This document shows, piece after piece, positions 10,165-35,902 of a stretch of DNA of 64,000 nucleotides (its first letter is position 1; each line of letters opens with the position of its first letter). The notes below the pieces were generated by a model. That model was not told the origin of the DNA. It did not search any database and was given only the letters and a program-made list of their open reading frames with translations. The position numbers were made by a program, and so were the translations under genes. Location of the stretch: NCBI GenBank assembly GCA_024403855.1, contig JAKSRC010000003.1:1-64000 (forward strand), written 5' to 3'. Source of the stretch: Saccharofermentans sp. (GTDB lineage Bacteria > Bacillota > Clostridia > Saccharofermentanales > Saccharofermentanaceae).

Positions 10165-10431
10165 TGTGATTATAATTGACTAATGAATGATGGTTCTATA
10201 GATGTATTGATAAGTTGACGAGTGGGGAAGGTACCCTGCGCTCCATTAGGAACTTGATATGATGGATATGTCGCCCATCCTATTTATCGAGAAGTCTATT
10301 CGAGAATTAATGCAGTTTAATATAAAGCAAAGAGATTATAAAAACGACAAGTAATTAATAAAAATTGTCATATATATATCAATATTTAGTTAATAATAAT
10401 TATTTCAACCACAATATATTGCGTTAGTGAT
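10165..10431. other. gene-free AT-rich gap before the ImmR-like gene
   Basis: About 270 bp without a supportable gene, part of a 460-bp gap. It is AT-rich towards its right end, with no recognisable RNA, repeat or IS fragment. It may contain remnants of an integration event, but nothing in it identifies one. Confidence 0.4.
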
Positions 10432-19110: not shown

Positions 19111-19926
19111 ATGTATCCATTTATCGAAATATTCGGAAAGACAATAGGCACATACGGAATCGCGACAGCAGCAGGAATGCTTGTCGCTGCTCTGGTCTTT
19201 TATTTCCTCTTGAGAGAAAAAGAAGTAGCTTTTGAAGACGTCGTAATCACCGGTCTGATCTATGCCGGCGGTGCAGTTATCGGTGCACACATTATTTACG
19301 GTATAACAAATACTGATAAGATCATCACATTGTTTAAGAACATCAAGGATTACGGATTTATTGATTTTGTAGTCACACTGTTCGGAAACTATTTTGGCGG
19401 TATGGTCTTCTATGGTGGAATGCTTGGCGGACTGGTCGCTCTGTTAATTGCAGATAAGGTTTCTCAGAAGTATTTCAGAGGAGCTGATATGTTTGATGCA
19501 GTTGCAGTAGTAATTCCGCTGTTCCATGTATTTGGCCGTATCGGTTGTTTCTTCGGCGGATGCTGCTATGGTATCCCTAGTGAATTCGGATTTACGGCTC
19601 ACGGCAACACATTGTATCCGTCATTAAATGACGTCAACAGACTTCCGATCCAGCTTATTGAAGCATGTCTTAACCTGATCCTGTTTTTCGTGCTTCTGGC
19701 TTTATATAAGAAAAAGAAATTTCCGCACAGAATGATAATTGTTTATTTCTTCACATATCCGGTTATCAGATTCTGTGATGAATTCTTCAGAGGTGATGAG
19801 ATAAGAGGATTCTTTATGGGTCTTTCAACATCCCAGATCATAAGCATTCTGCTTTTCACTTTCGCGATTATCGTCACAGTTAAAGACCTAATCCAAAAGA
19901 AGGCTTCCGGCAGTGCGAAAACATAA
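19111..19926 (+). CDS. lgt: prolipoprotein diacylglyceryl transferase
   Basis: A 271-residue, seven-helix membrane enzyme that transfers diacylglycerol from phosphatidylglycerol to the lipobox Cys of prolipoproteins. The Lgt signature HVFGRIGCFFGGCCYG lies in the central part, with the conserved YGGMLGG loop before it and RFCDEFFRGDE after it. The ATG at 19111 has AAAGGGAA upstream. Several lipoproteins in this window (3516 and 13633) would be its substrates. The length is normal for Firmicutes. Confidence 0.92.
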   Translation: MYPFIEIFGKTIGTYGIATAAGMLVAALVFYFLLREKEVAFEDVVITGLIYAGGAVIGAHIIYGITNTDKIITLFKNIKDYGFIDFVVTLFGNYFGGMVFYGGMLGGLVALLIADKVSQKYFRGADMFDAVAVVIPLFHVFGRIGCFFGGCCYGIPSEFGFTAHGNTLYPSLNDVNRLPIQLIEACLNLILFFVLLALYKKKKFPHRMIIVYFFTYPVIRFCDEFFRGDEIRGFFMGLSTSQIISILLFTFAIIVTVKDLIQKKASGSAKT

Positions 19927-19942
19927 ACTACCTTTATTTATT

Positions 19943-20167
19943 TATAATTATTAACGTATCGGGATGGTCTAAAAGGCCATCCAGTGTTATTCTAAAGGAG
20001 CATTGGAAATCAGCTTTTTCCTGTTTCCCGTGCAAAATGACAATATGAATTTAACGGACTCTGACGGTGAGGTTTTTCCAAGCGGGAATAGTCTTTTATC
20101 AATAAGCTTTGGCAGATTGTTATAGGCTCCTTTTCGTCAGATTTCTGAAGATGAAGGGGCTTTTTTT
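19943..20167 (+). ncRNA. riboswitch-like leader of the nitrogenase-like/hyp/hyd operon
   Basis: TATAAT at 19943-19948 suggests a transcript start near 19955. A hairpin (GGATGGTC/GGCCATCC) lies at 19962-19982. A domain of about 140 nt is then closed by a perfect 8-bp P1, AAAGGAGC (19994-20001) with GCTCCTTT (20126-20133). Inside it are P2 (GGAAA 20005-20009 with TTTCC 20017-20021) and P3 (TTCCCG 20025-20030 with CGGGAA 20083-20088). The P1 3' strand also pairs with GATGAAGGGGC ending at 20160, forming a hairpin with seven T directly before the ATG at 20168. That hairpin also hides the SD (AAGGGG 20154-20159). P1 and terminator are mutually exclusive, as in ON riboswitches. The class is not recognised. 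Confidence 0.6.
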
Positions 20168-20923
20168 ATGCTTAAGATAGCTATTTACGGCAAAGGCGGA
20201 ATTGGAAAATCGACGGTAACGTCAAATCTTTCTGCTGCTTTCGCACGCCTTGGCAAGCGCGTCATTCAGATTGGATGCGATCCAAAGGCTGATTCAACGA
20301 TTAACTTATTGGGCGGCAAAGCTTTAAAGCCCGTTATCGAAATACTTAAGGACGGCGAGGAACCGACATCAGCTTCTGAGATTTCAGCAGAAGGTTTCGG
20401 TGGAGTCCTCTGCATTGAGACAGGTGGTCCTACACCTGGTCTTGGATGTGCCGGAAGAGGCATTATCGCGACATTCAATCTTCTCGATGAACTCGGATTA
20501 TTTGAAAGCTATAAGCCGGATGTCGTTTTGTATGACGTTTTAGGTGACGTTGTATGCGGCGGTTTCGCAGCTCCTATTAGAGAGGGCTATGCTGAGCATG
20601 TTCTTATCGTCACATCAGGCGAGAAGATGGCACTCTATGCTGCCAACAACATCTGCCAGGCAGTAAGAAACTTCGAAGACAGAGGATATGCGAGTGTCAG
20701 AGGAATTATCTTAAACAAGCGTAATGTTCCTAATGAAGATGAGAAGGTAAAGGCATTTGCCGATGAACATGACGTCGAGATAGTTGCAGTTATTCCGAGA
20801 AGTGATGATATTGCTCTTTGTGAGGATAAGGGAATGACATGCGTTGAAGGCGCTATTGATTCTGATGCAGCTTCTAAATTCATGAAGCTTGCAGAGCAGC
20901 TTATAAGCGAAGCGGAGAAGTAA
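20168..20923 (+). CDS. NifH-like iron protein (nitrogenase-family reductase)
   Basis: A 251-residue ATP-dependent [4Fe-4S] reductase of the NifH/BchL/CfbC family. It has the P-loop GKGGIGKST (residues 8-16), switch [11 protein letters not shown], and both cluster-ligating cysteines: Cys94 in GCAGRG and Cys130 in [11 protein letters not shown]. As a homodimer it would pass low-potential electrons to the component-1-like proteins encoded downstream. It is the first gene of an operon that also carries hypFCDE and hydF. Real nitrogenase genes (nifD/K with cofactor ligands, nifB) are not in the window, so dinitrogen is unlikely to be the substrate. Confidence 0.93.
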
Positions 20924-20926
20924 TTT

Positions 20927-22255
20927 ATGAAGCGCGAAGCGGTTTTTTATACAGCAAAAGACGTTGCAGAGCGTGGCAAACAGGGAATTCCTGACGAGTT
21001 GTTATCGGGAAAAAGCCTTGTTTACAGTTCTCCTGCAACACTTGCCTACAACTCACCCGGTGCGGAAGGCTTTGGTGTTAAGCGAGCAGGATTAAGCGTT
21101 CCTGAATCAGTAATGCTGATCGTTGCGCCCGGCTGTTGCGGTCGTAATACATCGCTCATTTCGAATATGCCAGGATATAAGAACAGATTCTTCTATCTCG
21201 AGATGAACGAAGCTGACCTTGTAACCGGAAGACATCTTACAAAGGTCCCCGGTGCTATCAAGGAAGTTCTTGAATTCCTGAAGGGAACAGCTTCGCACAA
21301 GCTCCCTAAGGTCGTCATGATCTGCATAACATGTGTAGATGCTCTTTTGGGAACAGACATGGAAAGAGTATGCCGCAAGGCAGAAGACTCTCTTAAGGAT
21401 TCAGAATTTGAAGGCACGAGAGTAAGACCATGCTACATGTATGCACTTACAAGAGAAGGTCGTCGTCCTCCTATGGTTCATGTCAGACAGACGATTTATT
21501 CGCTCCTTGAGCCAATGGAAAAGGACCCTAAGTCCGTCAACATAATCGGAGGCTTTGCCCCGCTCGAAAATACTGAGCTTCTGAAATATTTAAAGAATGC
21601 CGGCATCGAAAACATAAGACAGATATCTACCTGTGATACTTATGAAGAATTTTTATGCATGGCAAAAGCAAACTTCAATATCGTTATCAATCCTGAGGCA
21701 AGAGCATGCGCTGAGGATATGCACAACAGACTTTCGATCCCGTATATTGAGCTTACGAGAGTATACGGAACTGATAAGATTGCTGCGCAGTATAAGGCGC
21801 TCGCAAATGTTGTAGGAACTGTTTTCGAAGATGAAGAAGATAAGGCTGAAGCTGATGGCGCTATTGCAAGACTTAAAGCGGAGTATCCTGATCTTACTTT
21901 TAATATCGGTGAGTGTGTTAACGGCAATCCTTTCGAGCTGGCATTAAGCCTTGCAAGAATGGGATTTAAGGTCGAGGAGATCTACGCAACTCTTGCACCT
22001 GAAAACTATGTATTCGTAAAAAAGCTCGCCGAACTTTCACCTTCCACAAAGCTTTACTGCAATATGGAACCCACGATGCTCTATTACGACATTTCAAATT
22101 CGAAGGCGGATATAACGATTGGTAAGGATGCCGGATTCTATTGCCCGGATATTCCGAATGTCTCTTGGAATCAGGACACTGAGCCTTTGGGATACCAGGG
22201 CGTCAGAGACCTCATGAACAGGGTATATGACAGCTTGAAGGAGGACAGGAAATGA
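20927..22255 (+). CDS. nitrogenase component-1-like protein, long subunit (pair A)
   Basis: A 442-residue member of the NifD/NifK/NifE/NifN superfamily (oxidoreductase/nitrogenase component 1). The P-cluster-like region holds Cys70-Cys71 in VAPGCCGRN and Cys133/Cys136 in MICITCVDALLGTD, matching positions used to bind a bridging [4Fe-4S] or P-type cluster. No clear Cys/His pair for a FeMo-type cofactor is evident near the C-terminus. It starts 3 bp after the NifH-like gene and overlaps the next by 4 bp, so both component-1-like subunits are made together, probably as an alpha/beta pair. Confidence 0.85.
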   Translation: MKREAVFYTAKDVAERGKQGIPDELLSGKSLVYSSPATLAYNSPGAEGFGVKRAGLSVPESVMLIVAPGCCGRNTSLISNMPGYKNRFFYLEMNEADLVTGRHLTKVPGAIKEVLEFLKGTASHKLPKVVMICITCVDALLGTDMERVCRKAEDSLKDSEFEGTRVRPCYMYALTREGRRPPMVHVRQTIYSLLEPMEKDPKSVNIIGGFAPLENTELLKYLKNAGIENIRQISTCDTYEEFLCMAKANFNIVINPEARACAEDMHNRLSIPYIELTRVYGTDKIAAQYKALANVVGTVFEDEEDKAEADGAIARLKAEYPDLTFNIGECVNGNPFELALSLARMGFKVEEIYATLAPENYVFVKKLAELSPSTKLYCNMEPTMLYYDISNSKADITIGKDAGFYCPDIPNVSWNQDTEPLGYQGVRDLMNRVYDSLKEDRK

Positions 22256-23187
22256 AGGGACTTCGCAAGGTTTTAACTCCTTTTGCACCCGATCAGTCCG
22301 GTGCTTCCGGAGTAGTTTATTCAATGGGTGCCCTGATCGTAATTATCGATGCAGGCGGCTGCACAGGTAACATCTGCGGCTTCGATGAACTCAGATGGCG
22401 TGATACCAGAAGTGCGGTTTTCTCAGCCGGACTTCGTGATATGGATGCGATTTTAGGACGAGATGAACTCCTGGCTTCCAAGATCGAATCTGCTGCATCA
22501 AGAATAGATGCTTCATTCGTAGCAATTATCGGAACACCAGTTCCTGCTACTATCGGAACAGACTACAAGGCGCTCAAAAAGCTTATTTCAAACAAGGTTA
22601 CAATCCCTGTTGTTGCAATTCCGACTAACGGAATGAAGACTTATAACGAGGGAGAGTGGGAAGCTTATAAAGCATTAATCGACGAGTTCGCAAAAGATTC
22701 TGTAGAAGATGAATCCGGCGAAATTATCGTAGGCATGACACCTCTTACTTATGGCGACGACTATATGGACATCACGCTTGACGACATAAAGAGGATCAAG
22801 TCTTCTAAAAAGCTTGTTGCGGCATCTTCTTCAGGTATTGATGCGTGCATTTATTCCGGTAACGACTTTGAGATCTATAACCCTGTAGTAAGGGCAAATA
22901 TTCCTGACGGAATTACCGGAAAAACTCTTGTCTGTCACGATGAAGTAGTCGGAAAAACGATAAGAGATGCAGGTATTGATGTAGATATCGCGACTTTCTT
23001 TAAGCTCCACGATTCGATTAAAAGAGATGGCGACAGAAAGCTCACCGAAGAGGACGATTTTGTCGCTATGGTAAAGGAAGGCGGTTACGACACGATAGTT
23101 GCCGATATCTGCCTGAAAGAACTTGTTCCTGATTTTGAGGGCAAGTGGATCGACCTTAAATGCTTTGCTGTTAGCGGGAGAAGTTGA
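22252..23187 (+). CDS. nitrogenase component-1-like protein, short subunit (pair A)
   Basis: A 311-residue, shortened component-1-like protein. The segment DAGGCTGNICGFDELRW has Cys37 and Cys42. The position that normally carries a second cluster Cys reads IIGTPVPATIGTD, without Cys. It is paralogous to the short subunit of pair B (29281): both share an SGAxxxxYxxG start, an xGC motif, DExRW and GLxDMDAIxGxD. It lacks the C-terminal domain of NifK. It is coupled to the long subunit upstream and to hypF downstream by overlapping stop and start codons. Confidence 0.82.
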   Translation: MKGLRKVLTPFAPDQSGASGVVYSMGALIVIIDAGGCTGNICGFDELRWRDTRSAVFSAGLRDMDAILGRDELLASKIESAASRIDASFVAIIGTPVPATIGTDYKALKKLISNKVTIPVVAIPTNGMKTYNEGEWEAYKALIDEFAKDSVEDESGEIIVGMTPLTYGDDYMDITLDDIKRIKSSKKLVAASSSGIDACIYSGNDFEIYNPVVRANIPDGITGKTLVCHDEVVGKTIRDAGIDVDIATFFKLHDSIKRDGDRKLTEEDDFVAMVKEGGYDTIVADICLKELVPDFEGKWIDLKCFAVSGRS

Positions 23188-25460
23188 TGGTAACAAAGCG
23201 CATTAAAGTTTACGGAATCGTCCAGGGCGTTGGCTTCAGACCCACCGTCTCAAGACATGCCGCTTCCCTTGGAATAAAGGGAAGTGTTGCTAACCTTGGC
23301 CCTTACGTAGAGATCTATGCGCAGGGAGAAGAAGATACTGTCGATGAATTCATCCGCAAGATCAAGGAAGAACCACCGAAGCGTGCAGTAATCCTGAAGA
23401 CTGATGTGAAGCTCGTCGAAAAGGAAGACTACGACAGTTTTAACATTATTGAGAGCGGCAAGACTTCAGGCGAGATTTTCGTATCACCTGACATCGCTAT
23501 CTGCGACGAGTGCCTGGATGAACTTTTCGACAAGAATAACAAAAGATACCTTCATCCGTTTATAAACTGCACATGTTGCGGACCGCGCCTTACGATTCTG
23601 GATGCGCTCCCTTATGACAGGGAGAGAACTTCCATGAAGGAATTTCCGATGTGTCCTGCATGCGAGAAGGAGTATCACGATCCTGATACCAGAAGATATG
23701 ACGCTCAGCCCGTATGCTGCAATGATTGCGGTCCTGAAGTGTTCATTCTTGATGATCCTGATAATCGAAAAGGAAGAGACGCAATCACTTATGTGCGCAA
23801 GGTTTTGGCAGAAGGTGGCGTTGCTGCAATTAAAGGAATCGGAGGATTCCATTTGGCATGCAACGCTTACGATGACGACGCCGTAAAGAGATTGAGAAGT
23901 CTTAAGAACCGTCCGTTCAAGCCCTTTGCAGTGATGATGAAAAACAGAGAAGAAGTTCTGAAGAACTGTTACATCGAGGAGTATCAGGAGAGCATCCTTA
24001 CTGGTCATCAGAAGCCTATTATGCTTCTTAAGAGAAAGGCAGGATCAGAAATCGCTGCAAGCGTCGCACCGGAGAATCCGATGGTTGGAGTTATGCTTCC
24101 ATATGCTCCTGTTCAGAGCCTTCTTTTCGATTATGACGATGGTATTGATATGCCTTCATGCCTTGTAATGACAAGTGGAAATTTGTCAGGACTTCCTATA
24201 TGCAGAAATGACGATGACGCCAGAAAAGAGATTGCTTCATACTGCGACGTCATCCTTACACATAACAGAAAGATCCGCGTAAGAGCAGACGATTCAGTAA
24301 TGGATTTCTTCGATGGAAAGCCTTATATGATAAGAAGATCCAGAGGTTATGCTCCTCTTCCGTTCATGATGACAAAGCCTTTTGGCGGAACAGTTATCGC
24401 ATATGGCGGAGAGCTTAAAAATACATTCTGCGTGGCAGTAAATAACCTTATGTATCCGTCATCTTATATTGGTGATCTTACTGACCTTAAAGGCAAGAAT
24501 GCACTGATAGAATCAACACAGAGAATGTGCACACTTTTAGAAGCAGAGCCTTTCTATGCAGTGTGCGACCTTCATCCTACATATAACTCGTCTGCAGCTG
24601 CCGAAGAATCCGGACTGCCGCTGATAAGAGTGCAGCATCACTATGCTCACATCCTTTCCTGCATGGCTGAAAACGACTATACAGGCGATTGCATCGGAAT
24701 ATCTCTTGATGGTACAGGCTATGGAACAGATGGCACTATCTGGGGTGGCGAAGTTTTGAAGTGCAGTCTTGACGGATTCGAAAGGCTTGGCCACATCAGA
24801 CCGTTCCTTCACACAGGCGGTGATGTTGCTTCAAGAGAGGGCTTTAGAATTGCAATATCGATGCTCATCGATATATATGGTGATGACGCTGAAGCCAAGG
24901 CACAATCACTCGGACTTGTTCGCAAAGGTAATTTCAAGACATATAAAGCGATGCACGATAACAGGATCAATACTGCCGTGTCTACAAGCTGCGGAAGACT
25001 TTTCGATGCTGCAAGCGCAATACTTGGAATCAGGTATGAGCAGAGCTTCGAAGGTGAAGCGGCAACTTCTCTCGAGTTCAAGGCACTGGAATTTTCCGGA
25101 CAGGAGTTTGCTGCTCCCGGTCTTATCGAAGGTGATGTTATTACTACGGATAAGATTATTTCAAGGCTCGTATCCGGTATGGAAAACGGCGAGGACATCT
25201 CAAAGCTTGCCTATGAATTCCATTATCTTCTCGCAAAGGGCGTGGCTCAGATGGCGATGGAGAAGTCCGGTGATATCAGAACTGTCGCATTAAGCGGTGG
25301 CTGCTATCAGAACAAGCTGCTTACAAAGCTCACAAGAGATGAGCTTACAAAAAATGGGTATAACGTCCTGATCCACTCGATGGTTCCACCTAATGACGGC
25401 GGAATCGCTCTGGGACAGGCGCTTTACGGAATAAATAAAATTAACAGTCTAAATAAATGA
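23187..25460 (+). CDS. hypF: carbamoyltransferase HypF
   Basis: HypF uses carbamoyl phosphate and ATP to carbamoylate the C-terminal Cys of HypE, the first step in making the cyanide ligands of hydrogenase iron. Domains in order: acylphosphatase (about 1-90, GIVQGVGFRPTV), two zinc-finger motifs (CDECLDELF, CTCCGPR, CPACEKEY, CCNDCGP), a YrdC-like ATP domain (about 200-380), and a Kae1-like C-terminal domain (VQHHYAHILSCMAEN, SLDGTGYGTDG, LSGGCYQN). The length of 757 is normal. ATG at 23187 overlaps the previous stop. It appears complete, which implies that cyanide synthesis is wanted here. Confidence 0.96.
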   Translation: MVTKRIKVYGIVQGVGFRPTVSRHAASLGIKGSVANLGPYVEIYAQGEEDTVDEFIRKIKEEPPKRAVILKTDVKLVEKEDYDSFNIIESGKTSGEIFVSPDIAICDECLDELFDKNNKRYLHPFINCTCCGPRLTILDALPYDRERTSMKEFPMCPACEKEYHDPDTRRYDAQPVCCNDCGPEVFILDDPDNRKGRDAITYVRKVLAEGGVAAIKGIGGFHLACNAYDDDAVKRLRSLKNRPFKPFAVMMKNREEVLKNCYIEEYQESILTGHQKPIMLLKRKAGSEIAASVAPENPMVGVMLPYAPVQSLLFDYDDGIDMPSCLVMTSGNLSGLPICRNDDDARKEIASYCDVILTHNRKIRVRADDSVMDFFDGKPYMIRRSRGYAPLPFMMTKPFGGTVIAYGGELKNTFCVAVNNLMYPSSYIGDLTDLKGKNALIESTQRMCTLLEAEPFYAVCDLHPTYNSSAAAEESGLPLIRVQHHYAHILSCMAENDYTGDCIGISLDGTGYGTDGTIWGGEVLKCSLDGFERLGHIRPFLHTGGDVASREGFRIAISMLIDIYGDDAEAKAQSLGLVRKGNFKTYKAMHDNRINTAVSTSCGRLFDAASAILGIRYEQSFEGEAATSLEFKALEFSGQEFAAPGLIEGDVITTDKIISRLVSGMENGEDISKLAYEFHYLLAKGVAQMAMEKSGDIRTVALSGGCYQNKLLTKLTRDELTKNGYNVLIHSMVPPNDGGIALGQALYGINKINSLNK

Positions 25461-25476
25461 TTGGGAGGAATTTACA

Positions 25477-25689
25477 ATGTGCGTAGGTTTATCCGCAAAA
25501 GTAATCGGTGTTAAAGATGGTGTGGCATTGGTCGATTGTACCGGTGCGAAGCGTGAAGTATCAGCTGAGCTCTTAGACGATCTTGAGCCCGGTGATTATG
25601 TAATGGTTCACGCAGGATGCGCTATCGCGAAGATCACAGATGACGACAAGTCACAGACTCAGAAACTCGCAAAGGAGCACCTGTCATGA
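25477..25689 (+). CDS. hypC: hydrogenase maturation chaperone HypC
   Basis: A 70-residue HypC/HupF-family chaperone. It has the essential Cys2 (MCVG start) and the conserved EPGDYVMVHAGCAI-type motif near residue 43. HypC partners HypD to hold the Fe(CN)2CO unit and then delivers it to the acceptor apo-protein. GGGAGG precedes the ATG. It overlaps hypD by 4 bp. No large hydrogenase subunit with a C-terminal extension is present in the window, so the acceptor may be unusual. Confidence 0.95.
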   Translation: MCVGLSAKVIGVKDGVALVDCTGAKREVSAELLDDLEPGDYVMVHAGCAIAKITDDDKSQTQKLAKEHLS

Positions 25690-26741
25690 CGAATTTTTCA
25701 GATACTTCTGAACTCAGAAAATATCTCGAATCTTACGACGGACCTGCAGTCAGAATTATGGAGGTCTGTGGTACACATACTCATGAGATCTTCAGACAGG
25801 GAATAAGGAAATTTTTATCACCCAAGATCAATCTCATCTCCGGTCCTGGCTGTCCTGTATGCGTAACTCCTGCATCTTACATTGATGAGGCAGTTTATCT
25901 TGCGCTCGAAAAGGGCTGCACTCTGACTACGTTCGGTGACCTTGTAAGAGTTCCGGGAAACAAGCAGAGCATCCAGCAGGCAAGAGCTGCAGGCGGAAAA
26001 GTAAAGGTTGTTTATTCTCCTATTGATGGTGAGAAGTATGCAAAAGAGCATCCTGAAGAACAGGTCGTTTTCCTTTCTGTAGGCTTTGAGACGACAACTC
26101 CTTCCGACGTAATAGCAGTTAAGAATGCTATAAGAGATGGTATCGATAACTTCTCAATCCTTACTGCCAATAAGACAATGCCGGGTGCATATAATGCAAT
26201 GGCTGCTTCAACTGATGCATACCTTTATCCCGGTCATGTTCATGCTGTTATCGGCACTCAGATCTGCAAGGATTTCCTTGCTAAAGGTGTATCCGGAACA
26301 ATCGCCGGTTTTACAGGTGACGAGCTTCTTGCAGCTCTTGCGATCACAGTTAAGAAATGCTCCGAAGGCAAGCCTTTCTTTGTAAATGCATATCCAAGAG
26401 TTGTAACTGACGAAGGAAGCCCTGCTGCAGTTGCTCTTGTTGATAAATATATGCAGGCATGTGATGCAGAGTGGAGAGGAATCGGCATGATTCCTGCTTC
26501 CGGAGTTGAACTCAAGGAAGAATTCGCTGCATACGATGCACGCAAGAAATATAACATCCCGAAAATGGAATACGAGCATAAGACAGCCTGCAGATGCGGT
26601 GACGTATTGCAGGGAAAGATCAAGTCTTCTGACTGTCCGCTTTTCGGGAAGGCATGTAATCCCGATCACCCTGTCGGAGCATGCATGGTGTCTGATGAAG
26701 GCGCATGCTCTGCATTCTATATGTATGGAGGCAATGTATGA
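25686..26741 (+). CDS. hypD: hydrogenase maturation protein HypD
   Basis: A 351-residue iron-sulfur protein that forms the scaffold with HypC on which Fe(CN)2CO is built. Conserved motifs are CGTHTHEIF, GPGCPVCVTP (the redox-active Cys pair), SVGFETTTPS and the C-terminal [4Fe-4S] Cys cluster (CRCGDVLQGK, CPLFGKACNP, GACMVSDEGAC). All expected cysteines are visible, so the protein should be active. It overlaps hypC and hypE by 4 bp each, as in typical hypCDE operons. Confidence 0.96.
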   Translation: MTNFSDTSELRKYLESYDGPAVRIMEVCGTHTHEIFRQGIRKFLSPKINLISGPGCPVCVTPASYIDEAVYLALEKGCTLTTFGDLVRVPGNKQSIQQARAAGGKVKVVYSPIDGEKYAKEHPEEQVVFLSVGFETTTPSDVIAVKNAIRDGIDNFSILTANKTMPGAYNAMAASTDAYLYPGHVHAVIGTQICKDFLAKGVSGTIAGFTGDELLAALAITVKKCSEGKPFFVNAYPRVVTDEGSPAAVALVDKYMQACDAEWRGIGMIPASGVELKEEFAAYDARKKYNIPKMEYEHKTACRCGDVLQGKIKSSDCPLFGKACNPDHPVGACMVSDEGACSAFYMYGGNV

Positions 26742-27742
26742 ACGACGTAATCACACTCGCACACGGAAGCGGCGGAAGACAGACTTCCGAGCTTATCGCA
26801 GAGATTTTCAAGAAGAATCTTGGAAATGAATTCTTCACAGCAGACGATGCGGCTGTCCTTCCCAGACCTGACGGCAAGATCGCAATGTCAACTGACGGCT
26901 TTATCGTATCTCCCTGGAATTATCCGGGCGGAAATATCGGAAGACTTGCAATCTGCGGTACTGTTAACGATATCGCATGCATGGGTGCCAAGCCTCTCTA
27001 TATCACATGTTCTTATGTTATCGAGGAAGGCTTCCCGATATCTGATCTCGAGCTCATCGTAAAGACAATGGGTGAGACAGCCAGAGAAGCAGGCGTTTAT
27101 ATTGTTGCAGGTGATACAAAGGTTGCAGGCAAGGGCCAGGTAGACAAGATTTTTATCACCACAGCCGGTGTCGGAATTATCGATGACGGTGTTGCCACAT
27201 CAGGAAGATTTGCAAAGCCCGGTGACAAGATTATCGTAACCGGTGATGTCGGAAGACATGGTACTGCAATCCTTCTTGCAAGAGATGAATACGGCATCGA
27301 AGCTGATGTTACATCCGACTGTGCACCTTTGTGGGAGCCTGTCAGAAAAGTTCTTGAAGTATGCCCTGAGATTCATGTAATAAGAGATGCTACAAGAGGC
27401 GGCGTCGGAACGGTTCTTTATGAGATTGCTGACGAAGCAGGCGTCGGAATCAAGATCAATTCCAAGGAAGTTCCGGTTGCACCAGAAGTAAGAGGTGTTA
27501 CAGGACTTCTCGGATTGGAACCGCTCTATCTTGCATGCGAAGGCAGAATGGTAATGATGTGTCCTGCTGATAAGGCTGATGCAGTCGTCGAGGCATTGAA
27601 GGGTACCAAGTACACTGAAGGTGCAAAGATCATAGGTGAGGTTACAGATACTGAAGTTGGAAGAGTTGTAATGACTACTGAAGTAGGTGGCCAGACATAT
27701 CTTCCCAAGCCGGGAAATGAGCTTTTGCCGAGAATTTGCTGA
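26738..27742 (+). CDS. hypE: hydrogenase maturation protein HypE
   Basis: HypE dehydrates the carbamoyl group on its own C-terminal Cys to thiocyanate, providing CN to HypC-HypD. It is 334 residues with an AIR-synthase-like fold (LAHGSGGRQT, EFFTADDAAVLP, MSTDGFIVSP) and ends exactly in PRIC, the obligatory C-terminal motif. ATG at 26738 overlaps the hypD stop. HypF, HypE, HypC and HypD together are a full cyanide-ligation set, but the nickel-insertion proteins HypA and HypB are not encoded in this operon. Confidence 0.96.
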   Translation: MNDVITLAHGSGGRQTSELIAEIFKKNLGNEFFTADDAAVLPRPDGKIAMSTDGFIVSPWNYPGGNIGRLAICGTVNDIACMGAKPLYITCSYVIEEGFPISDLELIVKTMGETAREAGVYIVAGDTKVAGKGQVDKIFITTAGVGIIDDGVATSGRFAKPGDKIIVTGDVGRHGTAILLARDEYGIEADVTSDCAPLWEPVRKVLEVCPEIHVIRDATRGGVGTVLYEIADEAGVGIKINSKEVPVAPEVRGVTGLLGLEPLYLACEGRMVMMCPADKADAVVEALKGTKYTEGAKIIGEVTDTEVGRVVMTTEVGGQTYLPKPGNELLPRIC

Positions 27743-27750
27743 GGCCATAT

Positions 27751-27999
27751 ATGGATTACAGAGTTGCTGCAATTTCAATAATCGTCGAGAATCCTGATTC
27801 AGTTGAGGAGTTAAATGCTCTTCTCCACGAAGCAGGCAAATATATTATCGGAAGAATGGGTGTTCCCTATCGCGAAAAGGGAATCAACATCATCATGATC
27901 GCGATTAATGCACCCCAGGATTACACAAGCGAGATCACCGGAAAGATCGGAAGACTTAAGGGAGTTAACGTAAAGACTTCTTATGCAAATGTCCATTGA
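27751..27999 (+). CDS. TM1266-family [FeFe]-hydrogenase system putative regulator
   Basis: An 82-residue ACT/NikR-C-like protein matching the TM1266 family (MDYRVAAISIIVENPDS at the start, IGRMGVPYREKGINII in the middle). Family members occur with [FeFe]-hydrogenase maturation genes and are called putative regulators; they have no DNA-binding domain. ATG at 27751 is chosen because the protein then starts at the family's usual MDxRVA. It is embedded between hypE and another nitrogenase-like gene, which ties the operon to [FeFe]-hydrogenase biology. Confidence 0.88.
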   Translation: MDYRVAAISIIVENPDSVEELNALLHEAGKYIIGRMGVPYREKGINIIMIAINAPQDYTSEITGKIGRLKGVNVKTSYANVH

Positions 28000-29284
28000 A
28001 GAAAAAGTATTGATCAGAGACGCCTCATTCCCGAAGCCGTTCAGCAACGGCCTTGAGTTCAATGCGCCCGCTCACGGAACATGGAATATCGTCCACATCG
28101 GCTTCAGGATTCCAAAGGCTCATCAGATTTATATTTGCGCCATCAATTGTCTTAGAGGCGTCGTCATGACGGCCGCTGAGATGGGTGAACTTGGAAGGTT
28201 CTCGTCGGTCGTTCTTGAAGAAGATGATATGACTCATTCAGGACGCATCGAGGAGACAACAATCGAAGGAATAACAGATGCATTAAATAAGCTTCCCGAG
28301 CTTCCTCCGGTTGTTATTGTTTTCCCTGTCTGTACGCATAAGTTCATGGGTTGCGACATCGATTATATTTACAGGGTTTTGAATGAGCGCTTCCCGGATG
28401 TAATTTTCGTAAAAGGATTCATGGATCCTATCATGCAGAAGCGTGGCACAAGTCCTGACCAGCGCCTTCGAAAAGCAATGTCTGACATAATACCTCAGAT
28501 GCCTGTAAATCCTGATGTTGCGGCATTTGTCGGTTGTGATGTTCCGGCTTCACTTAGCAACGATATCCGTGTTCTTCTTACAGAGAATAATCGCATAATT
28601 AGAGATACTGCAGCATGCAAAACGCTCGAAGAGTATTTGTCGATTGGCGAAGCTGAGAAACTTATCTGCCAGTATCCGGCAGGTCTTCTTGCTACAAAGA
28701 CAGCATCGGCAAGGCTTGGCAGAGAGTATTTTTACCTTCCTTTGAGTTTTAACTACAAGACGATTGAAGAAGAGATTTCTTCATTGAATCTTGATGTGCC
28801 GGATGGCTTTTTCGAAGCTGGAAAGAAGGCTTGTGAGGAAGAACTCTTAAATCTCAAAGAACTTATAAAAGATACACCTGTCGCAATCGATTATACGGCA
28901 GTCCCGAAGCCTTTGTCTTTTGCGAGATTTCTTCTCTCAAATGGCATTAATGTGAGGACAATTTATCTTGATGCTATCGATGGAAGTGAAGAAGAGGACT
29001 TTCAGTATCTTGCATCAAATTACCCTGAGCTGGTCCTCCATTCAACTATTCATGTCAGCGACAGAAGACTTGTAAGAAGTCCTGAAAAGATCCTTGCCGT
29101 AGGACAGAAGGCTGCATGGTTCGAAGGAACTGAGAACTTCGTAAACATCATTGAAGGTAACGGACTTTATGGATATTCCGGCATTAAGGAAATGCTAAAA
29201 CTCATGGAAGATGCTTTCACGAACAGTAAGGATTTGAGAGACATCGTACCGCGCAAGGGATTAGGTTGCAGGAGCATCGTATGA
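27983..29284 (+). CDS. nitrogenase component-1-like protein, long subunit (pair B)
   Basis: A 433-residue component-1-like protein. Cluster-region cysteines are Cys52 and Cys56 (ICAINCLRG) and Cys117 and Cys124 (FPVCTHKFMGCDIDY), so at least four candidate ligands lie where NifD/NifK bind the P-cluster. The rest has Rossmann-like repeats (AAFVGCDVPASL, FARFLLSNGINVRTIYLDA). It differs strongly from pair A's long subunit. The start overlaps the TM1266-like gene by 17 bp; ATG at 27989 is an alternative. It is probably an alpha-type partner of the next gene. Confidence 0.82.
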   Translation: MQMSIEEKVLIRDASFPKPFSNGLEFNAPAHGTWNIVHIGFRIPKAHQIYICAINCLRGVVMTAAEMGELGRFSSVVLEEDDMTHSGRIEETTIEGITDALNKLPELPPVVIVFPVCTHKFMGCDIDYIYRVLNERFPDVIFVKGFMDPIMQKRGTSPDQRLRKAMSDIIPQMPVNPDVAAFVGCDVPASLSNDIRVLLTENNRIIRDTAACKTLEEYLSIGEAEKLICQYPAGLLATKTASARLGREYFYLPLSFNYKTIEEEISSLNLDVPDGFFEAGKKACEEELLNLKELIKDTPVAIDYTAVPKPLSFARFLLSNGINVRTIYLDAIDGSEEEDFQYLASNYPELVLHSTIHVSDRRLVRSPEKILAVGQKAAWFEGTENFVNIIEGNGLYGYSGIKEMLKLMEDAFTNSKDLRDIVPRKGLGCRSIV

Positions 29285-30345
29285 AGAAGACTTACAGAAT
29301 ACTTCCGGTATATACAGGTGATGTGTCAGGTGCGGCTTCCGCTCTTTATGAGCTTGGCGGCATGACCGTTATTCACGATCCTTCAGGCTGCAATTCCACA
29401 TATAATACGCACGATGAAGTCAGGTGGTATGACAAGGAGAGCCTTATTTATATCTCCGGCTTGAATGACATGGACGCAATAACCGGAAATGACACTAAGT
29501 TCATTAACGATATCTGTTTTGCAGCAGAGAGAATGAAGCCGAAGTTTATTGCACTTGCCAATTCTCCATTGCCGTATCTTAACGGAACTGACTTCAAGGG
29601 CATCACACGAATTCTCGAAAAGAAGACGGGCCTGCCGTGCTTCTACATAAAAACTAATGCGATGCACGATTATTCAAAGGGTCAGTCCGAAGCATACTTA
29701 AGTTTTGCAAAAAGAATGCTTGAACCGAGCGATTCAAAGATCGAAAATGGCGTCAACATTATCGGTGTGACACCTCTGGATTTTACATCGACGGACATCT
29801 ATATAAATGACAGATACCAGATTGTATCTAACTGGTCTTTGAATACGACACTTGATGAAGTTTTGAATGCACCAAAGGCATCACTTAACATCGCAGTATC
29901 TTCATCTGCGATCGCTGTCTGCGAATATATGAAAGACAGATTTGGAATACCATACATTAAGGGACTTCCATGGGATGGTGAAGTTGAAGACTATCTTGCA
30001 ACCCAGCGTTCAAAATCCAAAAACTATATTGTGGGAGAGCCTGTGATATCAGCTTCGATCGCCGCTAAGATCAAGAAGATGTACGGTATCGATTTCAATG
30101 TCATTGCATCTACCGAGATCACTGATGGTCTGCTTCTTGATTGCGACAAGGTCTGCCACGGTGAAGAAGAGATCGAAGAAGCTTTGAAGGATGCTAAGAA
30201 GATAATTGCTGATCCTTTGGTAAAGCTGATTGCACCTTCAGGCGCTGAATTTATAGAGCTTCCTCATTTCGCAATGTCAGGAAGATTATATAAAAAAAAC
30301 ATTCCAAATCTTATGAAACCGGAGGAGTATTACCATGGGACTTAA
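29281..30345 (+). CDS. nitrogenase component-1-like protein, short subunit (pair B)
   Basis: A 354-residue component-1-like protein paralogous to the short subunit of pair A. It shows SGAASALYELGG, HDPSGCNST with Cys37, HDEVRWYDKES and GLNDMDAITGND. As in pair A, the second cluster-Cys position reads without Cys (LANSPLPYLNGTD). ATG at 29281 forms an ATGA overlap with the long subunit. It ends 11 bp inside hydF. The repeated long/short architecture suggests two heteromeric complexes sharing one NifH-like reductase, comparable in layout to NifDK plus NifEN. Confidence 0.82.
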   Translation: MKKTYRILPVYTGDVSGAASALYELGGMTVIHDPSGCNSTYNTHDEVRWYDKESLIYISGLNDMDAITGNDTKFINDICFAAERMKPKFIALANSPLPYLNGTDFKGITRILEKKTGLPCFYIKTNAMHDYSKGQSEAYLSFAKRMLEPSDSKIENGVNIIGVTPLDFTSTDIYINDRYQIVSNWSLNTTLDEVLNAPKASLNIAVSSSAIAVCEYMKDRFGIPYIKGLPWDGEVEDYLATQRSKSKNYIVGEPVISASIAAKIKKMYGIDFNVIASTEITDGLLLDCDKVCHGEEEIEEALKDAKKIIADPLVKLIAPSGAEFIELPHFAMSGRLYKKNIPNLMKPEEYYHGT

Positions 30346-31537
30346 TGACACACCCTCATCTGAAAGAATTCATATCGGATTTTTCGGCAGAACCAATGCC
30401 GGCAAATCAAGCCTCGTAAACAAGATTACCAATCAGGAGCTTGCGATCGTATCTGATACAAAAGGTACGACAACAGACCCTGTCTATAAAGCAATGGAGA
30501 TACTTCCGTTAGGGCCGGTTGTAATTATCGACACTCCCGGTTTTGACGACGATGGCATCCTGGGAGAGAAGAGAATTACCAGAACAAAACTCGTTCTTAA
30601 TAAGGTCGATGTAGCTGTCCTCGTTGTTGACAGCACTTTGGGTCTGACTGATACGGAGAAGGTGTTGGTAAGTCTTTTCGAAGAGAAGAAAATTCCGTAC
30701 ATCATTGCATATAACAAGGCTGATCTGAAGGAAGATACGCCCTCTGCAGCTAACGAGATTTATGTCAGTGCAGTCAATGGCAAGAATGTCGATGCTCTTA
30801 AGGAGATGATCGCAAAAGCAGGTCTTGCAAAAGAGCCGGCAGTACCTCTCATCAGCGATCTGATCAATCCGGGCGATACGGTTGTCCTTGTTATCCCGAT
30901 CGATGAATCTGCACCTAAGGGAAGAATCATTCTCCCTCAGCAGCAGGTATTAAGAGAGATCCTCGATTCAAATGCCATGGCATATATTGCACAGGATACT
31001 GACCTAAAGGATCTTCTTGATAATCTTAAGACTAAGCCGAAGCTTGTAGTTACCGACAGCCAGGCCTTTGGCAAGGTATCGAAAATCGTTCCTTCCGACA
31101 TCCCGCTTACATCCTTTTCGATTCTTCTGGCAAGACATAAGGGATTCCTTGAATCAGCAGTTAAGGGCGTAAAGGCAATCGATACGCTTGAAGACGGTGA
31201 TATGGTATTGATCTCTGAAGGCTGCACCCATCACAGACAGTGCAAGGATATCGGCACATATAAGATTCCGAAGTGGCTTCATGAACACACCGGAAAAGAC
31301 ATCACTTTTGAGACTACTTCCGGCATGTCTTTTGCAGATGATCTGAGCAAGTATAAAGTGATAATTCACTGCGGTGCATGTATGCTCAACGACAGGGAAA
31401 TGACATACAGAACAAAGAGCGCTTCCGATTGCGGAATCCCGATGACTAATTACGGTACCGCAATCGCACATATGCATGGCATACTTAAGCGCTCTTTGGA
31501 AGTATTTCCTGATATTTTGAAGTTGCTCGACGCTTAA
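30335..31537 (+). CDS. hydF: [FeFe]-hydrogenase maturation GTPase HydF
   Basis: HydF is the GTPase scaffold that carries the 2Fe subcluster and hands it to apo-HydA. Its 400 residues show a Ras-like GTPase (GRTNAGKSSL at 18-27, DTPGFDDDG, YNKADL), a dimerisation domain, and the C-terminal cluster domain with Cys297 and His299 (CTHH) plus His345, Cys346 and Cys349 (HCGAC). All expected [4Fe-4S] ligands are present. The start has GGAGGAG upstream and overlaps the preceding gene. HydE and HydG, which make CO, CN and the dithiolate bridge in the known pathway, are absent from the operon. The stop abuts the convergent thiC stop. Confidence 0.95.
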   Translation: MGLNDTPSSERIHIGFFGRTNAGKSSLVNKITNQELAIVSDTKGTTTDPVYKAMEILPLGPVVIIDTPGFDDDGILGEKRITRTKLVLNKVDVAVLVVDSTLGLTDTEKVLVSLFEEKKIPYIIAYNKADLKEDTPSAANEIYVSAVNGKNVDALKEMIAKAGLAKEPAVPLISDLINPGDTVVLVIPIDESAPKGRIILPQQQVLREILDSNAMAYIAQDTDLKDLLDNLKTKPKLVVTDSQAFGKVSKIVPSDIPLTSFSILLARHKGFLESAVKGVKAIDTLEDGDMVLISEGCTHHRQCKDIGTYKIPKWLHEHTGKDITFETTSGMSFADDLSKYKVIIHCGACMLNDREMTYRTKSASDCGIPMTNYGTAIAHMHGILKRSLEVFPDILKLLDA

Positions 31538-35591: not shown

Positions 35592-35611
35592 TTCAAAACA
35601 ACTTATATACG

Positions 35612-35703
35612 TTAAGTGTCCCTACGTTGGCATTACCCAAATCAGGTATTCGGTCGAAGGGAAAACCTTCCTCTCAGCCCGTATGCGAGCTCCCGTCCTT
35701 ATA
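35612..35703 (-). promoter_or_regulatory. TPP riboswitch (THI element)
   Basis: Read on the minus strand, it contains the THI-box core: GGGCTGAGAGGAAGG, then ACCGAATACCTGATTTGGGT, then AATGCCAACGTAGGGA. These are the HMP-sensing and pyrophosphate-sensing helices of the TPP aptamer. A terminator hairpin follows and then the thiWMEDC genes, so TPP should shut the operon off by transcription termination. Confidence 0.95.
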
Positions 35704-35902
35704 TTCGATTTTTCACATCAAAAGTTACACTAAAGTTCGTTTTGACGCAACACCTTTTTCAAACCGATTTTCATAAGGTTATCTGAAGCGTTTTTCGAGC
35801 CTTTGGCAACTGTTATTTGTCCTAAAAAGCCCAAAATCTCCATTTACTTTTGACGCTCGATTAATTATTATTCTTGTGTATTTCAATTAAAGGAGTGTAA
35901 TT
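35704..35902. other. divergent promoter region between thi operon and PPi-PFK
   Basis: About 200 bp. TTGACG at 35850-35855 is a likely -35 for the plus-strand PFK gene, with a weaker -10 about 17 bp on. The minus-strand promoter for the THI leader must lie between about 35710 and 35760, but no clean consensus was picked. AAAGGAG precedes 35903. Confidence 0.45.

Follow-up and report, generated by a model that had tools for sequence, protein, structure and literature searches.

The NifH-like gene at position 20168 of the window (the whole 64,000-nt stretch of Saccharofermentans sp. DNA that was analysed) opens a long operon and is preceded by a leader, namely the gap between its start and an lgt-like ORF (19111-19926). 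What is this leader, and what does it control? In a first-pass annotation, it had been described as a riboswitch-like leader of an unrecognised class, a description that agrees with our results: we found no match in Rfam, covariation among homologues, and an expression platform made of a terminator and a Shine-Dalgarno (SD) sequence. A covariance-model search of the leader against Rfam 15 returned no plausible family even at E ≤ 10, with nothing reaching a gathering threshold, and none of 25 related loci had an Rfam match at the element described below at E ≤ 1. A known riboswitch or Rfam family was thus rejected as the identity of the leader. Elsewhere in the window, we noted a TPP riboswitch (RF00059, 61.7 bits, 35601-35706, minus strand) before a thiamin gene cluster and a skipping-rope RNA (RF02924, 41.9 bits, 10210-10287, plus strand), which belongs to an orphan sRNA family.

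The following features were located in the leader itself.

20000-20033, + strand: upstream hairpin (94/110 cells paired in 10 leaders, one mis-set pair included; fold z -4.2)
20125-20160 with T7 at 20161-20167, + strand: intrinsic terminator hairpin (fold energy; kept with pair changes in relatives)
20153-20159, + strand: Shine-Dalgarno-like GAAGGGG in the terminator 3' arm, 8 nt before the ATG

The hairpin ending in seven T, which had been said to hide the SD and to touch the ATG, is real and was found in 10/10 close-relative leaders. Its stem (20125-20160) has a folding energy of -17.8 kcal/mol (z -3.9, with 0/200 shuffles equally stable), and the ATG at 20168 lies directly 3' of the T run. 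We aligned the leader of the window with those of nine close relatives (L002-L005, L009, L010, L012, L013, L107). Pairs change within the terminator among these 10 leaders, and the layout in which the terminator 3' arm holds the SD (GAGGAG in relatives) and leads into T7 and the ATG is present in all of them, window included (10/10). The 226-nt leader as a whole exceeds its shuffles in stability only modestly (z -1.8, with 10/200 as stable), and whole-leader folding energy was dropped as evidence for that reason. That energy alone would not have revealed the structure, which was seen through homologues. The upstream hairpin (20000-20033) is lineage-specific, being kept in close relatives only, and no counterpart was apparent in more distant loci. 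A further hairpin, GGATGGTC-TAAAA-GGCCATCC, lies at 19962-19983 just 3' of the lgt-like gene and has no T run; similar hairpins occupy the equivalent place in L011 and L014.

As a starting set, we took 80 loci that encode a relative of the NifH-like protein and examined the sequence upstream of that gene. A short pattern was common to Saccharofermentans-like, Lachnospiraceae, Coriobacterial and other genomes of this set, and where the operon starts with another gene, the element precedes that gene instead. Inspection of translated leader regions placed it before hydF in L050, L054, L062, L065, L068, L069 and L077, and inspection likewise placed it before a HydE-like gene in L025, L064, L066 and L075. 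In L022, hypC has its own copy with a terminator. The corresponding part of the window, missed in the first pass, is the place where DNA similarity to congeneric genomes peaks (around 20057-20096). We call it the hyd element.

20057-20093, + strand: hyd element, a hairpin of ~40 nt (covariance-model matches and compensatory changes in P1-P3)
20057-20060/20090-20093, + strand: P1 of the hyd element
20061-20064, + strand: CUGA of the hyd element
20065-20068/20082-20085, + strand: P2 of the hyd element
20069-20070/20080-20081, + strand: tandem purines of the hyd element
20071-20072/20078-20079, + strand: P3 of the hyd element
20086-20088, + strand: GAA of the hyd element

The consensus from 57 aligned sequences reads C-U-G-A-[C N N N]-R-A-R-R-loop-Y-Y-R-A-[N' N' N' G]-G-A-A-G. 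At either end of a 4-bp helix, CUGA lies opposite GAAG, giving C-G, U-A and then two adjacent G·A oppositions, which are putative sheared pairs. The element is nearly two-fold symmetric, with CUGA-N4-GAAG occurring twice. The covariation score was 0.497 in a 43-sequence alignment compared with 0.214 after shuffling (0/500), and 0.548 compared with 0.196 in the 57-sequence alignment (0/500). In the latter, 8 of the 9 pairs had both-sided changes (109 such cells versus 31.8 when shuffled, 0/500), and 89% of the cells pair, a proportion that fell to 44-53% when the partner was slid by one column. RNAalifold, run unguided, recovered P2 and P3. Among 43 further matches outside model building, P2 cells were paired in 149/172 cases with many pair types, a slightly favourable count as it used the best-pairing register near each match. 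Within the genus, P2 has little covariation of its own, and a single G·G opposition in the P2 of the window is found in every member of the genus aligned (0/10 paired). Covariation among homologous leaders was found, as sought, in the 20057-20093 hairpin (0/500 shuffles), whereas the closing helix proposed in the first pass is not conserved. As known for riboswitches, this leader RNA is conserved, structured and subject to compensatory change. A DNA operator is an unlikely explanation for the element because the loop is not of constant length and P2 shows covariation at the RNA level.

We built covariance model R1 from the 43-sequence alignment and model R2 after adding the R1 matches; the E-values of both come from a short calibration. 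The window element scored 46.2 bits with R1 and 37.2 bits with R2, and it is the single real R1 match of its own genome, the next best place reaching 13.9 bits. At E ≤ 0.01, R1 matched 39/391 class genomes and 8/300 phylum genomes. With R2, the element was detected in 102/391 sampled class genomes (E ≤ 0.05) and 22/300 phylum genomes (E ≤ 0.01), frequencies that are lower bounds since this model was run with strict filters. Most of the sequences appear to come from metagenome-assembled genomes. The R2 matches within open reading frames in L171, L189, L192 and L196 were judged false, as were those of L126/L214. Some arrangements depart from the single copy. Five Coriobacterial NifH-like leaders (L031, L039, L043, L055, L087) apparently carry two tandem copies, some of them with no obvious terminator. 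A variant with a longer 5' strand (UUCUGAAUGCACGAGGGUUAGUCCCAAGUGGUAAGGCGG) was observed upstream of TM1266 in L220, L221-L224, L226 and L232, and in L221-L224 it sits in tandem behind a normal copy.

The element almost always precedes the [FeFe]-hydrogenase maturation genes hydG, hydE, hydF, aspA or TM1266. Of 47 independent class-sample matches, 39 had hydG, hydE, hydF, TM1266 or nifHDK-like genes immediately downstream, and the other eight comprised three NitT/TauT-type ABC transporters, one contig end and four matches in coding sequence that look false. Earlier matches also placed it before aspA, in L106 and L113. Reference identities were assigned by NCBIfam (HydG 909 bits, HydE 496 bits, AspA). 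According to PMC11736057, the ammonia-lyase AspA provides the nitrogen atom in the bridge of the H-cluster, and aspA is linked to hyd operons. The broad link to a metabolite, metal or cofactor suggested at first can, by gene context, be narrowed to assembly of the [FeFe]-hydrogenase H-cluster. Transporters of three families (NitT/TauT ABC, FecCD ABC and ECF), often adjoining TM1266, also lie under the element (L179, L187, L195, L197, L182, L096, L100, L102, L109, L211). They include NitT/TauT-type ABC transporter operons in L179, L187 and L195. The gene after TM1266 encodes a FecCD-type permease in two loci (L096, L100) and an ECF-type component in two others (L102, L109), with L100 and L109 assigned by sequence resemblance to scanned ones. 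In L211, also assigned by sequence resemblance, the element stands directly before an ECF-like gene without TM1266. These transporters may import the ligand or a precursor, and the presence of three unrelated families under the element argues for a small molecule or ion as the signal.

The operon of the window itself has the following composition.

20168-20923, + strand: NifH-like ATPase, first operon gene (PF00142, 301 bits; below the nifH, CfbC, BchL and BchX cut-offs)
20927-22255, + strand: NifD-like protein (PF00148, 109 bits)
22252-23187, + strand: NifK-like protein (PF00148, 51 bits)
23184-25460, + strand: HypF (TIGR00143, 749 bits)
25478-25690, + strand: HypC-like small protein, MCVGLSAKV... 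(by inspection; position between hypF and hypD)
25686-26741, + strand: HypD (TIGR00075, 358 bits)
26705-27742, + strand: HypE (TIGR02124, 414 bits)
27736-27999, + strand: TM1266-family putative regulator of the iron-only hydrogenase system (TIGR03959, 106.7 bits)
27983-29284, + strand: second NifD-like protein (inferred from its position before the second NifK-like protein)
29266-30345, + strand: second NifK-like protein (PF00148, 85.6 bits)
30335-31537, + strand: HydF, [FeFe]-hydrogenase maturation GTPase (TIGR03918, 547 bits)

The hypC-like gene falls below the first ORF size cut-off. The TM1266-family protein has about 87 aa and is a relative of PDB 2nzc. Profile searches gave no family match for the second NifD-like protein, which has 38% identity to a relative in L186. 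The operon does not encode a nitrogenase NifHDK by score, with 305 bits for the NifH-like protein (cut-off 394) and 31 bits for the NifD-like protein (cut-off 654). The genome of the window (G000) encodes an [FeFe]-hydrogenase (518 bits) just beyond the right edge of the window and a HydE-like ORF elsewhere. HydG is absent from this genome: the best match had 73.7 bits against a cut-off of 312 and is HydE-like by inspection. No [NiFe]-hydrogenase large subunit was found there either. We also searched 50 genomes, namely G001 and G142, two congeners without a detected element that were added for comparison, and others in which a NifH-like gene of this family is present. HydG exceeded the cut-off only in G001, G142 and G749, the genome of L051, where it was barely over (332 bits). 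Within the genus, HydG was thus found in 0/10 genomes with the operon and in 2/2 without (Fisher p = 0.015), operon absence in G001 and G142 being judged from the lack of an element match.

Tyrosine is the normal source from which HydG produces CO and cyanide, and for [NiFe]-hydrogenase the Fe(CN)2CO unit is built by HypCDEF using carbamoyl phosphate. From these roles and the HydG pattern, we infer that the NifHDK-like/HypFCDE/HydF operon replaces HydG. The G000 operon, with its two NifD/NifK-like pairs, is likely a HydG-less H-cluster pathway, and one RNA class would then control both the HydG and the HydG-less versions. The HydEFG pathway with AspA (PMC11736057) resembles this system in that HydE and HydF are present here and the element precedes aspA in L106 and L113, but here HydG is missing and HypFCDE, two NifDK-like pairs and a NifH-like protein stand in its place. 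The [NiFe] system likewise shares HypC, D, E and F genes with the window, although the genome lacks the [NiFe]-hydrogenase large subunit. Because the HydG and HydG-less routes share the element, the signal should be common to both; it could be iron, a late product such as the diiron precursor, or a precursor that is taken up. Tyrosine, p-cresol and carbamoyl phosphate are unlikely for the same reason.

How could the element act on the operon? Two short strands connect it with the terminator.

20060-20066, + strand: proposed antiterminator 5' strand UCUGACG, inside the hyd element
20135-20141, + strand: proposed antiterminator 3' strand CGUCAGA, inside the terminator hairpin

The mutually exclusive folding read in the first pass was borne out, with different partners: 20060-20066 and 20135-20141 are paired in 61/65 cells of the 10 leaders, and the duplex of the window had a z of -3.7 against shuffled terminators (1/200 as good). 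As in riboswitches, the expression platform is, computationally, mutually exclusive with the aptamer, the antiterminator sharing strands with both element and terminator. The antiterminator varies little within the genus, L009 and L012 have it only partly, and several z values are weak. Among Saccharofermentans relatives, the element 5' strand gave z values of -0.6 to -5.4 against the terminator (-5.4 in L005, weakest in L022). In L102, L103, L109, L114, L116, L121, L169 and L181, it is the element 3' strand that matches the terminator 5' arm (z -2.7 to -5.0), the 5' strand matching the terminator much less. L097, L099, L117 and L118 have no intervening terminator, and their SD borders the element on its 3' side. 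Whether element strands pair with the terminator 5' arm or the element adjoins the SD, all three designs therefore predict that a stable element switches expression off.

We consider it probable that the leader is a cis-regulatory RNA outside Rfam, most likely an OFF riboswitch reporting on [FeFe]-hydrogenase H-cluster assembly. Binding of the signal would stabilise the hairpin at 20057-20093, making 20060-20066 unavailable to 20135-20141, and the terminator/SD hairpin (20125-20167) would form, so that the NifHDK-like/HypFCDE/HydF operon would be neither transcribed nor translated. Without signal, UCUGACG would pair with CGUCAGA, breaking the terminator and freeing the SD, and the operon would be expressed. 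In other lineages, pairing of the element 3' strand with the terminator 5' arm, or an element abutting the SD, would give the same sign. A wider proposal is more tentative and falls slightly short of probable: a new riboswitch class would sense the state of H-cluster assembly and govern two pathways, the known one with HydG and an unrecognised one without it, where the CO-/CN-bearing iron unit would come from HypFCDE and two nitrogenase-like complexes.

The same RNA could instead be bound by a regulatory protein, for which a TM1266-family dimer is the most plausible candidate; binding would stabilise the hairpin and cause termination or SD block, a form of autoregulation. We find this rather unlikely, although several observations fit. 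The small, pseudo-two-fold symmetric conserved core would suit a protein dimer, and TM1266, which is encoded in or beside those operons, often directly follows the element. In the class sample, TM1266 occurs in 76/79 element-bearing genomes (element at E ≤ 1e-3, counted by hand) versus 163/312 others (Fisher p = 3e-15). However, such an association is also expected simply since both belong to [FeFe]-hydrogenase maturation, and one element lies directly before an ECF transporter gene. No TM1266 was detected in element-bearing genomes G250, G072 and G698 (phylum sample), which are 93-97% complete and have credible matches, possibly reflecting assembly gaps; the third class-sample exception, G223, is probably a false element match. 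By inspection, about half of 18 TM1266 loci from element-negative genomes have no element upstream, and some of the TM1266 genomes that had scored as element-negative do contain divergent or tandem versions of it (L221-L224, L226, L232). Because of these exceptions and of the TM1266 loci without the element, TM1266 is probably not an obligate partner, and it was kept as a rival.

We regard it as improbable that the element is a conserved RNA of H-cluster operons that is not ligand-gated, such as a processing or stability element, or an attenuator responding to temperature or to an iron-sulphur protein. The element is often located between genes or directly before the SD, as processing elements can be, but terminators complementary to it in unrelated families indicate conditional termination. 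Least credible is the ON switch of the first-pass annotation, in which a closing helix of 8 bp would act as antiterminator when ligand binds a 140-nt domain. Its perfect complementarity (AAAGGAGC at 19994-20001 and GCUCCUUU at 20126-20133) can be read in the letters of the window alone. In the alignment of 10 leaders, however, two of the eight pairs are each possible in 1/10 and a third in 5/10, its 5' strand overlaps the conserved hairpin at 20000-20033, and the ~40-nt core occurs without the 140-nt domain in other lineages. The helix is thus unsupported as a structure, and the ON logic loses its support with it, as formation of the element implies OFF.

As an OFF riboswitch, the leader would resemble the transcription-terminating riboswitches of Firmicutes, of which the TPP riboswitch at 35601-35706 is an example, in its conserved aptamer-like structure in the 5' leader, its alternative antiterminator and terminator, and its gene-family-specific distribution. 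It differs from them by a very small core, a terminator arm that carries the SD and touches the ATG, and no covariance match to any Rfam family. The pan motif is also a small hairpin upstream of a biosynthetic operon, sometimes in tandem, and is so simple that a protein dimer has been considered as its ligand (Weinberg et al., 2010, PMC2864571). It has bulged A residues where the hyd element has CUGA/GAAG modules, it is associated with different genes, and cmscan gave no match between them. The nifV motif (PMC11109978) is a candidate riboswitch upstream of a gene for a complex metallocofactor pathway, with the SD within the structure, but it has four Geobacter representatives and unrelated genes, and hyd or nifH leaders are not mentioned in that paper. 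Among the published papers searched, preprints and one large published motif list excepted, none dealt with an RNA element at hyd genes or with a nif-like/Hyp route to the H-cluster; an earlier description of either is possible.

If our reading is right, a cis-regulatory RNA absent from Rfam would control the assembly of a most unusual metal cofactor in common gut and environmental anaerobes, and it would offer a way to identify the signal by which cells gauge their H-cluster level. The shared RNA would also assign the NifHDK-like/HypFCDE/HydF operon to H-cluster assembly and suggest that the CO and CN ligands can be supplied without HydG. Gut nifH-like genes of this kind are probably not nitrogen-fixation genes.
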